DNA of 34,626 bases. Origin: an uncultured Chthonomonas sp. Lineage in GTDB: Bacteria; Armatimonadota; Chthonomonadetes; Chthonomonadales; Chthonomonadaceae. Location of the stretch: assembly GCA_903821495.1 (NCBI GenBank), contig CAIJLM010000236.1:1-34626 (forward strand), read 5' to 3'. Positions 26,409-31,744 of this stretch are shown here, in pieces (the first letter of the stretch is position 1; each line of letters begins with the position of its first letter). Both the position numbers and the translations under genes were made by a program. The notes beneath the pieces are model-generated. The model saw only the letters and a list, made by a program, of their open reading frames with translations, was not told the origin of the DNA and made no database searches.

Positions 26409-29400
26409 TTAGAAGCGAATACGGAAGTCAGCCATCGCTGTTATCTCGTCCGGTAGGTTGGGCGCATCGTGCGAGCGAATATCGGCGGAGAGGCTAAGGA
26501 AGCGGTTCGCGTTAAGATTGTGTTCCAGCGCGAGGCGGAGATGGTTGGAGTTATCGTATCTATCGGGCCAGCGGTTGCCGTCTGCGCTAAAGGTCAGCGT
26601 CAGTTTGCTCGATTTGTTGAGTTGTCCCTCAAAGCCGCCGCCGAACGAACGAGTCATTATCTTTGTGGCGGAGTTGTCGCTCAAGCGATAGAAGACCTCA
26701 AGGGCTAAGTCCTTGTGGAAGTTATGCTTTAGCGTGGTGTCGGTTGTCAAAATAGGCAGAACGTTTAGCTTCTCATCCTCTTGCAGAGTTCCGAAAAGGT
26801 AGTTAAGCGAGGTGGCTCTGGATAGTCGCGCCGAAGCGGTAAAGCGTCGTATCATCTTCTCCGAGCCGTCTAGCATAGTGCGCTGTTTGTAGTAGAAACT
26901 GCCCTTAAATGAAAGTTTCGGGTTCGGGTCGGTAGAGAAGAAGTAGGTGCGCGAGATAGCCTCTCCCGTTTTGTCGATGTTGCCGCCGTAGTCGAGCATA
27001 AACTCGTTTTTCCAGAGTTTCCAGGTGGCTTTACCCGTCATTACCTCCGTCATCATTTTGCGCTGGTCGTTCAGCGCGGCGTAACGCGCAGTAATGATGA
27101 AGTCTTGCAGAGGCCCCAGTCGGATAGGCTTCGCGTTCGAGAGCGATACATCCGCCACATCTTTTGTATTGATGGATATCTGATGTATCTCGTTAAAACT
27201 CGCGGCGAACCTTACATCCTTGAGCGGCTCCCCTGTCATACCCACCGTATAGATGTTTACATCGCCCAGTAGCGGGACGAGCGGCGTTGTTGTCGGGGTT
27301 TGGGTGTTCTGAGGATTCTGCGGGTTCTGCACGTCGCGATGAGATATTCCCGCGATAATCGCAAACTTCTTGGTGGCTTGCCACGAGAAGTCAACGCCAT
27401 TCGCAAATTCGTTTCCCTGCTCCCCTTTGTCCATGCTCTCTAGCGATAGCCCAAAGGTAAAGTCTTTAGACGGCTTAATTTTCGCGTTGACGATAGTGGT
27501 ATCTATGCGCGTACCGTCAAAGAAGTCCACCTGCTTGCGCTGTAGTTTGAGAGGGTTCTTCACCGAGTCGGGCGTGCCGAGAGTGAAGAGTTCGGTACGC
27601 GCTCCCTGCGTGGCGACATCGTTTGCAATCGTCACGTTCTGGTCTTTTGTCCATGTGAAGGTGTAGGCTTTGCTGAGTATCTTTGTCAGGCTAAAGGAGC
27701 TGATGTCCATGCCGTTACGCAGTCCGCTCGCCGTCGTCATGTCTCCGTTCGCCTTAAAAAGAATGGCGAGTTTCTTATCTGGGGTGAACTCAAGATTATG
27801 ATGGTAGGTTGTGCGGCCTAGCCCATCGTCGGGGTTGGTAGCCCATATCTCGCCCGTATCCAGTTTTAGCGTTTTGGTCGGCGCGATTTTCAAGCCATAC
27901 TCGTACTTCTTGAAGCCTCTGTCCAGCTCAATGCCGGGCTTCTCCGCGGCGGGAAGGGCGAGGTCGGCTCCACGCGAAAAACTTTTGCTTGTGTCTGAAA
28001 CGCCAATCGCGAGGTTCATCCCTTTTGTGTCTACCGTCACCTTTTCGCGGTTCATAGACATTCGCGCAGGATTAGAGGACTGTCCGCTACTGAGGGGGTT
28101 CAGCAGAGCGTCGGCGGTATTGCCAATGGAGAGGCTCTGAAATCCGATTTGTGTGCTTTTGTTCGCTAACCACGTCAGAAGCAGCTGCTGTCGGCGCAAC
28201 CCGTGTTCGTTGCCGAGGTTCGCCAACTCTAGGTCGGAGAGACCCGTTAGCCCCATTAAGTTCGCGTCCGCCGACTGATTGATAACCGAGAGTTTGACCT
28301 TCTTGTCGACGTAGGTTAAAGCGCTTCTATGTAGGCTTGAGGCGTTCGCTGTAGGTTGTGACGGAGTCATCTGGCTACCGAGCCTGAACTGACTGAGGGT
28401 GAGCGTTCCGCCCTTGCCCTGTTTGCCGAGTTGCGTGTTGAGTTGCATCGCGCTACGCTCTATGCCCACTTCACGCGCCACCTGTTCGCGCTCTTTAGGA
28501 GTCACCTGCTCAGGAGTGGCGGCGGGGTCGTAGAGGCGACGAACATCCAGCGCGAGGAAGGTCTTTTCAATATCGGTCAAGTCCGCTATACGGTGGAATG
28601 CTAAATCCGATTTGCGCTTTAGGAAGGAGATATTGAAGTTCCGCGCTTGAAGGCTCGCCTGAGTGCGGCTCATACCAGAGGTGGTAGCGGCGGGGTCGGT
28701 TCCCATGGCGAGAGGCGTATCAGTAATGCCAATCTGCGAAAGAGAGATAAGGCTATCTTTGCCGGGCATCCCGTCAAAGCGCATAACGTTGCGTGTAAGC
28801 CCGGCGGCTTTGCTCATCTGCGCCCTATCAATAGCGGTCACCATACCCAGCGTACCGTTAGGGTTGAAGCCTTTTAGCATATCTAGGGCGAGGAAACCGC
28901 GCTCCATATCGGTAAGACTGGCGATTTTTGAGAAGCTTGCGCCCACCGTTTGGCGTGTATACGACACGCCGAACTTCTTGGCGTTCAGCGCCACGTTTTC
29001 GCGTTGCAAGCCCTTGCCGGGAGTTTGGAGAGTCTCATCGGCGAGAGAGAGTTGCGAGAGTTGTAGCCCCGTCCCTTTTGCCGAACCAAAGCCTGCATTC
29101 AACGCGCTCCGTGAAATCCCTACTTCATTGACGAGTTGCGCCCTATCTACATCCGTTACCAGTTTCTCGTTATAGGTATTGTCGAACTGATGATAGATGT
29201 CGAGGAGGAGGTTGTTTTTATCGGCGAGAGAGAGGTCTTTCATCCTGCCGAAGGTCTTGCTAATAGAGCGGGTGCTGTATGCGAGAAGGACGTTTTGCCC
29301 CGTGAACCCCATGCTTTGGCGGTTGATAGAGCCGCTACCGTCCTGAATCTGGTTCATATCGAACTGAAGCCCTTGCAGAGGCTGTTTCTTGCCGCCAGTC

Positions 29401-30317
29401 GCGACTCCTAAACCAAAACTCATGCGGTGCATACCGCGCTGACCTTCCAACTCCGTTATCTGCTTGAGCATCTCCGCGTCGTTGGCGTAGTTGGCGCGTA
29501 GCGTCTTAAAACCGTTGAAGTTCGTTCCTACATCCTGATAGCCGCCCCGCACAGAGAACGCGCCCGCTTTATAGTTTGCGTCTTGTAGAATGAGGCTTCC
29601 TGCGCCTCGCGCCTCTTTATTCTCCGCCGCCTTTTCGTTGGGGTTCAGTTTGAGAACCATGTTGTCGCTATCGGCTGTGTTCGAGAAGAACATAAGGCTT
29701 CTGTAGTTGGAGAGGTTCTGCGCTCCGAACATACTGTTCAGCGATAGCCCATAGGTGGAGATGTTCAGCCCTGCGCCGTTGTTGGTTGCGGCTCCGAAGG
29801 TCAGTCCCATCTGCGTCGTGTTGTTCAGGTTCAGGCGCATATTAGGAAGAAAACTCGACACTGAGGCGTTGGCGGGGGCTTTTTCGAGGTAGCGGTAGTC
29901 TACGCTGAGGGTCTCGTAGCGAGAGAGGTTTATCTGTAGGTAGATGGCGCTGGATGCGGAATCGAACCAGTAGTCTTGGTTGAGGGTAAGAAGTCGTCCG
30001 CCCGCGTAGACATTGAGCGTATCTACGAGGATATTGGACTTGGTAAGGACATACGACGACGCGCTCCCCTTGCTACGAATTATCTCCGCGAACGCAGTTC
30101 CTTTATCGACGGAGGTCGTAAGCGCAGAGTTTCCGCTTGCAGTAATCTGGGAGATACCCGGCGTAACGTTCTGTGCAAGAGTCTGACTTGAGAGGAACAG
30201 CCCCGCCAAAGCGACGGAGAGGAGTCCGTAATATCGGCGCGAGTCCGTCGCCCCGCGCTTTTTAGCGTGGCGCGTCCAGCGGCTATATGCTTTTGTCGGT
30301 TTTCCTTGTCTCATCAT
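26409..30317 (-). CDS. Very large outer-membrane beta-barrel-type surface protein with internal repeats
   Basis: A 1302-residue exported protein. A long basic N-region (to about 30) precedes a hydrophobic core (YYGLLSVALAGLFL) and cleavage near TLAQ. Residues about 90-145 (YAGGRLLTLNQDYWFD, then ETLSVDYRYLEK) look like the strand-rich domain seen before large surface barrels. Residues about 355-735 carry four imperfect repeats of about 110 residues, with L-S/T-D..+..LALD, then R.Q+..E.G+.RSA+, then L.LSQ. From about 790 to the end it has alternating amphipathic strands and closes with DFRIRF, a Phe-terminated barrel signal. The start at ATG 30317 has AGG 6 bases upstream; a TTG at 30323 is possible. 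It follows the anti-sigma-like gene by 43 bp. No family is recognised; a surface transporter or structural role is inference. Confidence 0.7.
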   Translation of the reverse strand: MMRQGKPTKAYSRWTRHAKKRGATDSRRYYGLLSVALAGLFLSSQTLAQNVTPGISQITASGNSALTTSVDKGTAFAEIIRSKGSASSYVLTKSNILVDTLNVYAGGRLLTLNQDYWFDSASSAIYLQINLSRYETLSVDYRYLEKAPANASVSSFLPNMRLNLNNTTQMGLTFGAATNNGAGLNISTYGLSLNSMFGAQNLSNYRSLMFFSNTADSDNMVLKLNPNEKAAENKEARGAGSLILQDANYKAGAFSVRGGYQDVGTNFNGFKTLRANYANDAEMLKQITELEGQRGMHRMSFGLGVATGGKKQPLQGLQFDMNQIQDGSGSINRQSMGFTGQNVLLAYSTRSISKTFGRMKDLSLADKNNLLLDIYHQFDNTYNEKLVTDVDRAQLVNEVGISRSALNAGFGSAKGTGLQLSQLSLADETLQTPGKGLQRENVALNAKKFGVSYTRQTVGASFSKIASLTDMERGFLALDMLKGFNPNGTLGMVTAIDRAQMSKAAGLTRNVMRFDGMPGKDSLISLSQIGITDTPLAMGTDPAATTSGMSRTQASLQARNFNISFLKRKSDLAFHRIADLTDIEKTFLALDVRRLYDPAATPEQVTPKEREQVAREVGIERSAMQLNTQLGKQGKGGTLTLSQFRLGSQMTPSQPTANASSLHRSALTYVDKKVKLSVINQSADANLMGLTGLSDLELANLGNEHGLRRQQLLLTWLANKSTQIGFQSLSIGNTADALLNPLSSGQSSNPARMSMNREKVTVDTKGMNLAIGVSDTSKSFSRGADLALPAAEKPGIELDRGFKKYEYGLKIAPTKTLKLDTGEIWATNPDDGLGRTTYHHNLEFTPDKKLAILFKANGDMTTASGLRNGMDISSFSLTKILSKAYTFTWTKDQNVTIANDVATQGARTELFTLGTPDSVKNPLKLQRKQVDFFDGTRIDTTIVNAKIKPSKDFTFGLSLESMDKGEQGNEFANGVDFSWQATKKFAIIAGISHRDVQNPQNPQNTQTPTTTPLVPLLGDVNIYTVGMTGEPLKDVRFAASFNEIHQISINTKDVADVSLSNAKPIRLGPLQDFIITARYAALNDQRKMMTEVMTGKATWKLWKNEFMLDYGGNIDKTGEAISRTYFFSTDPNPKLSFKGSFYYKQRTMLDGSEKMIRRFTASARLSRATSLNYLFGTLQEDEKLNVLPILTTDTTLKHNFHKDLALEVFYRLSDNSATKIMTRSFGGGFEGQLNKSSKLTLTFSADGNRWPDRYDNSNHLRLALEHNLNANRFLSLSADIRSHDAPNLPDEITAMADFRIRF
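28118..29258 (-). repeat. Four-copy coding repeat of about 110 codons in the surface protein
   Basis: At protein level the repeats begin near FGRMKDLSLAD, FSKIASLTDME, FHRIADLTDIE and LMGLTGLSDLE (the last is partial). They share a helix-like LALD block, a basic block with RSA and a strand block with LSQ. The DNA has diverged, so this is an old duplication rather than a recent tandem array. Confidence 0.75.
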
Positions 30318-30360
30318 CGTCAACCTGAATTTCTTAGAGATAGCCTAACCCAACAGTCGG

Positions 30361-31515
30361 CTAGAAGCGCCGAAAAACGAATGCAGAGGACTGTAGTTTT
30401 TTCAAATTGTCAACCACTTTGGTTGCATCCTCGTCACTGCTACCATGATAACTCACCTCTGCGGACGAGCGCCCAGCGGGCTTGTTGGCATCTTTCAAAA
30501 GCAGTCGCGCCTGTTCAATGCGGGTCTTGCGGCGCTGTTCCGGCGAGAGTTCGGCAGTGATAACTCTAGGAGTGGTTGCAGAAGCGGCTTCCGTCGTCCC
30601 GCTAGTGGAGTTGTTCTCTGTGAAAGTGAACGCCGCTGGCATCGCTACAGGCTCTTTGGGCTTCTGGTTCGCTTTATCCATCATAGGTTTGGGCGTAAAC
30701 TCGCCGGGGGTCGGAAGAGGAGTTATCTCGACTCTGGAGTAAGCGACCTCGCGTGGGGGCTGCGTCCCTTTTGGAGGTGCGAGTCTATCCACTATAAGAG
30801 GCTTACGGGATGGCGGTCTGTGGAGACTAGCGCTCTGTAGTCCACCGTTAAAGAGTAGGGTCGGAACTCTGTTAGAGCTTTTGGAAGTCATCTCTTTGCG
30901 GTATCCGCCTGTCGCGCTCTTCGCCGTTTTCACGCTCTTTGCCGTTCCTATAGCGGGGTTACGGCCACTCGCCTGCGGGAAAAGCGGTTCCACCTTGGGC
31001 GCTATTTCCGCTCCTGCGCCTGTATCGTCGGCTTGCGGGATGGCGGCGACCATAACCTCTGTCTGAGAAGTTGTGCGCGTATTCTGCGCGGTGAACACTC
31101 CGTAACTCAAGCCCGCTATCAGCGCGACAGAGCCGACGGGAAGAGCGTAACGCCCCCATATCGGTAGGGTCTGGCGGCGCAGGGCGTTGAGTTGGCTCTG
31201 AACGCGGCGACGTAGCGTGAGGCGCTGAGAGGTAGCGGAGAGTATGCTGTGGCGGAGCGCGGCGGGAGGGGCGATATCGTCCATCTGCGCTAATATCTGA
31301 TGCGTGGTCTGGAAAAAGTTCAGTTCACGGGCGAGTATGGGGTCGGACTGTAGTAACCTGTCCATCTCCTCTCGCTCGGCTTCGTTCGCTTCGCCATCGG
31401 CATAGACGTTCAGCATCTCCCACAGGGAGTCTTCTGCGGTATCGTCCTCCATCAAAAAGAGTGGAAGACCGCTGAGTGATGACGATGAAATCTCCGGTTC
31501 GTATTTTTCGGGCAT
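30361..31515 (-). CDS. Anti-sigma-factor-like single-pass membrane protein
   Basis: A 384-residue protein. Residues 30-80 resemble an anti-sigma domain: LNVYADGEANEAEREEMDRLLQSDPILARELNFFQTTHQILAQM, but without the His-x3-Cys-x2-Cys zinc motif. A single membrane segment lies at about 122-143 (RYALPVGSVALIAGLSYGV), followed by a long, low-complexity Pro/Ser/Lys-rich periplasmic region with a short helical end (EQRRKTRIEQARLLLKDANK). Anti-sigma proteins of this type normally sit beside an ECF sigma gene; none is in the window. The start ATG 31515 has AGAGGCG 8 bases upstream. It precedes the big surface-protein gene by 43 bp, in one direction, so it may sense envelope state or the surface protein. 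Confidence 0.7.
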   Translation of the reverse strand: MPEKYEPEISSSSLSGLPLFLMEDDTAEDSLWEMLNVYADGEANEAEREEMDRLLQSDPILARELNFFQTTHQILAQMDDIAPPAALRHSILSATSQRLTLRRRVQSQLNALRRQTLPIWGRYALPVGSVALIAGLSYGVFTAQNTRTTSQTEVMVAAIPQADDTGAGAEIAPKVEPLFPQASGRNPAIGTAKSVKTAKSATGGYRKEMTSKSSNRVPTLLFNGGLQSASLHRPPSRKPLIVDRLAPPKGTQPPREVAYSRVEITPLPTPGEFTPKPMMDKANQKPKEPVAMPAAFTFTENNSTSGTTEAASATTPRVITAELSPEQRRKTRIEQARLLLKDANKPAGRSSAEVSYHGSSDEDATKVVDNLKKLQSSAFVFRRF

Positions 31516-31621
31516 TTCGCTATCGCCTCTTTTCCTAACGGCGCCTGCTTCTGTTTGGGGTGTAGGGTTCTTGGCAGGTCGTAAAATGTTCTATACCCTT
31601 TGGGACATAGGAGGCTGTGAG

Positions 31622-31744
31622 ATGTTACAAAAAATTGTTTCGGAACTTCGCAAGCGTTTTTTATGGAGTATACTCTTCATCATCCAAGCCCCGCGCAAGG
31701 GAGTTCGCTCTGATGCCCTCTTCGTTACTCTTAGGCGTTCTTGA
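31622..31744 (+). CDS. Possible 40-residue upstream ORF overlapping the GT-C gene
   Basis: ATG 31622 has a perfect AGGAGG 7 bases upstream (31609-31614), the best ribosome binding site of this locus. The 40-codon ORF ends with TGA at 31744 and overlaps the first ten codons of the GT-C gene in another frame. The peptide begins MLQKIVSELRKRFLWSILF: basic helix then hydrophobic, like a short membrane peptide. It may be a coupled leader peptide. Confidence 0.35.
   Translation: MLQKIVSELRKRFLWSILFIIQAPRKGVRSDALFVTLRRS

Follow-up and report, generated by a model that had tools for sequence, protein, structure and literature searches.

A ZAS-like anti-sigma gene encoded with a giant predicted outer-membrane barrel in Armatimonadota, and a candidate sigma partner beside bamA

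The window analyzed here is a whole stretch of 34,626 nucleotides from an uncultured Chthonomonas sp. of the phylum Armatimonadota (contig CAIJLM010000236.1). Its minus strand carries a gene for a protein resembling zinc-binding anti-sigma (ZAS) proteins, followed by a gene for a giant protein that is most likely an outer-membrane barrel, and the two are preceded by a promoter of the extracytoplasmic function (ECF) type. An earlier note, made from the letters alone, had placed the two genes 43 bp apart, and this was borne out when the coordinates were re-read, with the giant gene 43 bp downstream of the anti-sigma gene on the same strand. The giant has 1302 residues from the ATG at 30317 or 1304 from an upstream TTG, and the residue numbers in its feature lines and in the hydropathy analysis run to 1304 (TTG start).

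30361..31515, minus strand: ZAS-like anti-sigma gene, 384 aa
26409..30317, minus strand: giant gene, predicted outer-membrane barrel protein, 1302 aa from the ATG at 30317
31604..31629, minus strand: ECF-type promoter TGTAACA-N15-TGTC, 88 bp before the anti-sigma ATG (footprint; motif matching against reversed controls)

A conserved operon and its two products

A relative of the window's anti-sigma gene (below, the partner) immediately precedes the giant, in the same orientation, at 47 loci in 12 families. The gaps between anti-sigma and giant genes run from -1 to 272 bp with a median of 35 (29 measured), and the remaining neighbors of the pair differ from family to family. The earlier note had called for a search for conserved pairing in Armatimonadota and had held that homologs never adjacent to the anti-sigma-like gene would speak against its proposal; the search returned pairs in 47 genomes of the 12 families, although partnerless homologs do exist in two families, seen in 10 examined genomes of f14 and 1 of f5. 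A sequence search recovered giants from 41 of 61 relatives, and the giant profile matches 269 of 291 Armatimonadota genomes, the weak matches being paralogs that have only the N-terminal domain in common with it. The giant, most likely an outer-membrane barrel, would be the largest outer-membrane protein of Armatimonadota, encoded with a putative inner-membrane control protein.

Judged by its sequence, the partner is a ZAS-like inner-membrane anti-sigma-type protein, for which sigma binding and inhibition are predicted. Its features in the window are as follows.

31216..31428, minus strand: anti-sigma (zf-HC2/ASD-like) domain, about residues 30-100 (zf-HC2 alignment; zinc-bearing relatives; RsiW profile match)
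31087..31158, minus strand: predicted transmembrane helix, about residues 120-143 (hydropathy peak 123-143)
30364..30399, minus strand: C-terminal tail QSSAFVFRRF and flank, a short hydrophobic stretch with final Phe (conserved end among partners)

Taken alone, the window copy has Pfam and NCBIfam matches only below the cut-offs: the zf-HC2 alignment lies at residues 32-52, and the NCBIfam anti-sigma model is matched at 2.8e-10, below the model cut-off. Among its relatives zf-HC2 is matched in 24 of 29 (best 5.6e-25), the HxxxCxxC zinc motif is kept in 32 of the 47 partners, and the profile of the partner family matches solved anti-sigmas, namely RsiW (2e-9) and also RskA, RsrA, ChrR, RseA and MucA. 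The single hydropathy peak of the window protein is followed by a 234-residue periplasmic arm with 10% Pro. This Pro-rich arm is poorly conserved among partners; a short MDxxNQxP-like motif within it is conserved only in the window's family (f1). The tail is conserved, with Phe as the last residue in 44 of 47 partners and Tyr in 1, and both partners without an aromatic end belong to family f28. Among the other ZAS proteins in the window's genome, 16 had their ends read and none finishes in Phe, nor does any ZAS protein among the readable ends in four f14 genomes and one f5 genome. Partner tails are hydrophobic at positions -5, -6, -8 and -10; as a classical outer-membrane beta-signal, with hydrophobic residues expected at -3, -5, -7 and -9, the tail gave no strict match and this candidate was rejected.

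The giant has no sequence relative in Pfam, NCBIfam or the PDB. It is laid out as follows.

29886..30092, minus strand: N-terminal strand-rich domain, about residues 78-146, with a GxxLxxxxDYxxD motif (alignment; also in partnerless paralogs)
28914..29258, minus strand: repeat 1, about residues 356-470, helical insert and four strands (self-alignment against shuffles; model)
28554..28913, minus strand: repeat 2, about residues 471-590 (self-alignment; model)
28194..28553, minus strand: repeat 3, about residues 591-710 (self-alignment; model)
27834..28193, minus strand: repeat 4, about residues 711-830, degenerate (weak self-alignment; strands and short helices in the model)
26412..27833, minus strand: C-terminal strand-rich region, about residues 831-1304, with final Phe (hydropathy alternation in the profile; final Phe in relatives)

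The protein starts with a signal-peptide-like segment, contains no Cys among 1304 residues and has Phe as its last residue in 29 of 33 relatives; its N-terminal domain has weak matches to DUF2460 and to PDB entry 7woi. The repeats are about 110-120 residues long. Where the earlier note had counted four repeats of 110 residues, three are strong, with local scores of 91-110 against a shuffle maximum of 48, and the fourth is degenerate, scoring at or near that maximum. Whole units are gained and lost among relatives, given that the window lacks one present in loci L031 and L032 and L033 lacks another. At L031 (L031:6004-10180) the giant gene is split into two overlapping frames, by a frameshift or an assembly error.

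A barrel-like end with a final Phe, as the earlier note had described it, agrees with the family profile, in which hydropathy alternates over residues 810-1304 (lag-1 z -3.3 and -2.4, lag-2 z +2.9 and +3.5 for the two halves); FtsK, as a comparison, has no such alternation, and the same test over the repeat region gave no signal. The final Phe was confirmed, and the soluble, non-barrel C terminus that would have contradicted the description did not turn up. AlphaFold models of the giant were built with four sequences. The structure prediction of the full protein that the earlier note had suggested came out poor (1200 residues, pLDDT 38.5) and was dropped; its PDB matches were outer-membrane barrels with TM-scores <0.2, apart from one exceptional score of 0.34 normalized to a short target. 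The model of residues 300-830, covering the repeat region, is of moderate quality (pLDDT 67.7, pTM 0.65) and resembles outer-membrane barrels: an open sheet section of hairpin pairs, with strands of 10-13 residues (transmembrane length) and a helical insert after each four strands. The 50 best-scoring PDB entries for it are without exception outer-membrane proteins (AlgE, Occ porins, chitoporin, LptD, SlpA and BtuB), with low TM-scores of up to about 0.3. The large barrels SlpA, LptD, AlgE and the Occ porins are the best structural matches to the partial models of the giant, with low TM-scores of 0.06-0.25; unlike them it has repeated four-strand units with helical inserts, and no sequence relationship to them was found. 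Together with the signal peptide, the absence of transmembrane helices, the antiparallel strands of transmembrane length and the C-terminal aromatic residue, the models make the giant likely to be a barrel of repeated four-strand units, with no closed barrel obtained in any model.

The earlier note had imagined a new secretion, uptake or signaling system. A secretion or uptake machine is not supported for the giant: Pfam searches with 33 giants (E up to 1) returned no TonB plug, STN, FecR or SprA domain, and an SprA-like identity (the type 9 secretion translocon) was ruled out, with no SprA match in Pfam or PDB profile searches. Signaling is the part of that proposal that held up as the best reading, on the evidence below.

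Three further groups of large proteins were seen alongside. In four genomes of the window's family the giant is followed by a second large protein with no Pfam match (L037:10155-12914, L038:2944-6207, L041:11214-14465 and L042:3980-7243), of 1083-1087 aa where complete. Four other genomes each encode one shorter paralog of 636-669 aa (L182:1496-3451, L183:3014-5023, L184:3725-5683 and L185:3990-5900), which combines the giant's N-terminal domain with a barrel-like end and has no anti-sigma partner. Proteins of 849-1091 aa with the motif of the N-terminal domain (L188:2657-5716, L190:1903-5178 and L189:3447-5996) are encoded directly after a polysaccharide pyruvyl transferase (csaB-like) gene, a neighbor that suggests a link to cell-wall polymer attachment.

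A shared promoter, a bamA-linked sigma gene and joint presence or absence

In the window's genome, 16 of the 17 other ZAS genes adjoin an ECF sigma gene, but none lies near the anti-sigma/giant pair in the window. When 59 stretches around giants, 706 kb in all, were searched with a sigma profile, only 5 proved to have a sigma gene. Two of those belong to a separate, divergent sigma-ZAS cassette that adjoins the pair in family f19 (L144:1743-3103 and L145:1650-2830).

Alignment of upstream regions in a related family (a phylogenetic footprint) revealed a bipartite element before the anti-sigma gene, with conserved boxes and freely varying spacers. ECF sigma promoters have a -35 box with an AAC core and a -10 box of GTC type, a shape that the element fits. 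Allowing at most one mismatch, TGYAACA-N15-YGTC occurs before 29 of 47 partner genes versus 1 of 47 reversed controls, and exact copies number 13 of 47 versus 0. Within the order Chthonomonadales the motif stands before 24 of 25 partner genes, and within the window's family before 12 of 13.

The same element leads to one particular sigma gene. Of 30 sigma loci in the window's genome, a single one has the 15-spaced motif upstream on the coding strand, and this gene sits between the end of tamB and the start of bamA, both identified from sequence features and homology. Within the window's family, 15 of 17 genomes have TGTAACA-N15-CGTC upstream of this sigma gene. Motif hits in single genomes are near chance by the control counts; hence a regulon drawn from such counts was dropped, and the regulon reading was restricted to orthologous hits. 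Three genomes were scanned for the element, and of the genes behind it only the bamA-linked sigma gene and those of the anti-sigma/giant operon were orthologous among them.

In the first set, bamA follows the sigma gene at each of the 30 loci; tamB lies ahead of the sigma gene at 29 of them, and the remaining locus is cut by the contig end. Across 16 additional families the sigma-bamA order recurs at 18 of 19 loci. A search of about 80 loci around sigma-bamA or bamA turned up no anti-sigma gene. The tamB gene runs directly into bamA, with no intervening sigma gene, in f14 (10 genomes) and f5 (2 genomes). Counted over giant-bearing genomes with both sites readable (G017, G047 and G229 were not scorable), sigma and anti-sigma genes are both present in 44 genomes and both absent in 11 (10 of f14 and 1 of f5), with no discordant case. 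In f14 and f5 they are absent together although the giant persists, and both are retained in families f28, f29 and f30, which the phylum table lists beside f14.

A possible outer-membrane assembly response and its alternatives

Because the promoter is shared, the sigma gene is linked to bamA, sigma and anti-sigma genes are absent together and the C-terminal Phe of the anti-sigma is conserved, we decided for the signaling reading. That the anti-sigma pairs with the bamA-linked sigma factor is a well-supported inference from sequence comparison. With moderate confidence we propose a dispersed sigmaE/RseA-like response to outer-membrane assembly, in which the anti-sigma is co-transcribed with the giant. 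The cytosolic domain of the anti-sigma would hold the ECF sigma factor encoded between tamB and bamA, and its long disordered periplasmic arm, with the short hydrophobic stretch and terminal Phe, would monitor the outer membrane. Failing assembly would cause the arm to be released or cut, and the freed sigma factor would then drive transcription of the anti-sigma/giant operon as well as of its own gene and the bamA gene downstream of it. The giant would be a modular outer-membrane barrel and a large client of the barrel assembly machinery (BAM), either as sentinel or as output. The computations show the operon and the tail to be conserved, the promoter to be shared, the sigma gene to be linked to bamA, and sigma and anti-sigma genes to be present or absent together. 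We infer the direct binding of anti-sigma to sigma, the target of the tail, proteolytic release and the giant's role, and the Phe tail as sensor end of the anti-sigma is our hypothesis. Since the tails have no aromatic residue at -3, action as a PDZ ligand is just one possibility, and docking on BAM or the giant is another.

Several observations weigh against this proposal. The zinc ligands are lost in the window anti-sigma and in the whole window family, and two partners of family f28 (L153 and L154) lack both the zinc motif and the terminal Phe while the bamA-linked sigma gene is kept. The promoter motif was not found in f6, f19, f28, f29 and f30, being clear only in Chthonomonadales and a few loci outside, and it was not found before the sigma gene in family f3. 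Counted by family, the co-occurrence comes to 12 versus 2 (Fisher p 0.011), for units that are not independent of one another. Other sigma genes of the window's genome are likewise without a neighboring ZAS gene. Genomes G015 and G027 have the sigma gene and no giant was found in them, and the sigma gene also occurs in families beyond those counted. Given that the sigma gene is also present in genomes without a found giant, the bamA-linked sigma factor would have functions without the giant, or another anti-sigma.

A variant of the proposal, possible but doubtful in our estimate, is that the tail is the anti-sigma's own imitation of an outer-membrane protein C terminus. It would compete with clients, or dock beside them, at BAM or the giant, and the anti-sigma would read assembly capacity directly with no separate protease ligand.

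Surface signaling of the FecR-FecA kind we consider improbable. The giant would then be a ligand receptor whose occupancy is passed to the arm of the anti-sigma, and the sigma factor would answer an outside ligand and not assembly failure. The operon order of anti-sigma then outer-membrane protein is that of fecR-fecA, the N-terminal domain of the giant could be periplasmic, and in FecI-FecR-FecA, as would be the case here, the signal crosses the periplasm through a membrane anti-sigma (PMC9249621). However, Pfam finds no STN, plug, TonB or FecR domain, no sigma gene is adjacent, the N-terminal domain of the giant is kept in f14, which has no anti-sigma, and in partnerless paralogs, and the linkage of the sigma gene to tamB and bamA points to assembly, not uptake. 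Membership in the FecR-FecA system was rejected: its defining features are absent, and the partners match zf-HC2, not FecR.

There is also only a small chance, by our reckoning, that the partner is a former anti-sigma turned mechanical or assembly partner, docked by its Pro-rich arm and C-terminal strand to the giant or BAM and with a cytosolic domain that no longer regulates transcription. The missing sigma neighbor at almost all loci, the loss of zinc ligands across the window's family and the conserved tail are consistent with such a role, but the zinc motif survives in 32 of 47 partners and the partner and sigma genes have an ECF-type promoter in common. Moreover, the joint absence of sigma and partner in f14 and f5, where the giant stays, is not predicted for a structural partner of the giant. 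Very unlikely is control of a different, unlinked ECF sigma factor, with the common motif serving another regulator on both operons: the genome does have many ECF sigma genes, several others without a neighboring ZAS gene, but the motif has ECF promoter geometry and the motif-bearing sigma gene is the one absent together with the anti-sigma.

Relation to known systems and meaning

The proposed dispersed response resembles in outline RpoE-RseA-DegS/RseP of Escherichia coli, which has a membrane anti-sigma with a periplasmic part, an ECF sigma factor tied to outer-membrane protein assembly and an autoregulated sigma promoter, the last as seen here in the window's family. Relative to the generally known E. 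coli gene order, the sigma gene here lies between tamB and bamA and the anti-sigma gene forms an operon with the giant; further differences are the zinc-finger-type domain of the Armatimonadota anti-sigma and the Phe at its own C terminus. The partner resembles RsiW, RskA and other anti-sigma-domain proteins in that its N-terminal domain matches their solved structures by profile, but the partner differs in having no neighboring sigma gene and in its periplasmic arm with a conserved C-terminal Phe. In Pseudomonas aeruginosa, the periplasmic MucE has an outer-membrane-protein-like tail (...WVF) and activates AlgU-MucA-AlgW via the PDZ domain of AlgW (PMC8545111). There the tail is on a separate activator, whereas here it is on the anti-sigma, and MucE-type ligands (YxF/WVF) are aromatic at -3, whereas the Armatimonadota tails are not. 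A literature search, with subscription journals mostly outside its reach, returned no paper joining Armatimonadetes or Armatimonadota with these features.

Surveillance of outer-membrane assembly is poorly known in diderms outside Proteobacteria. Neither the anti-sigma gene nor the sigma gene has a partner nearby, and the analysis gives each a probable one, together with a testable promoter and regulon. If the proposal is true, Armatimonadota would have a sigmaE-type system in a new layout, with the sigma gene beside bamA and the anti-sigma gene beside that of the largest outer-membrane protein; the Phe conserved at the C terminus of the anti-sigma would suggest a direct means of sensing assembly.

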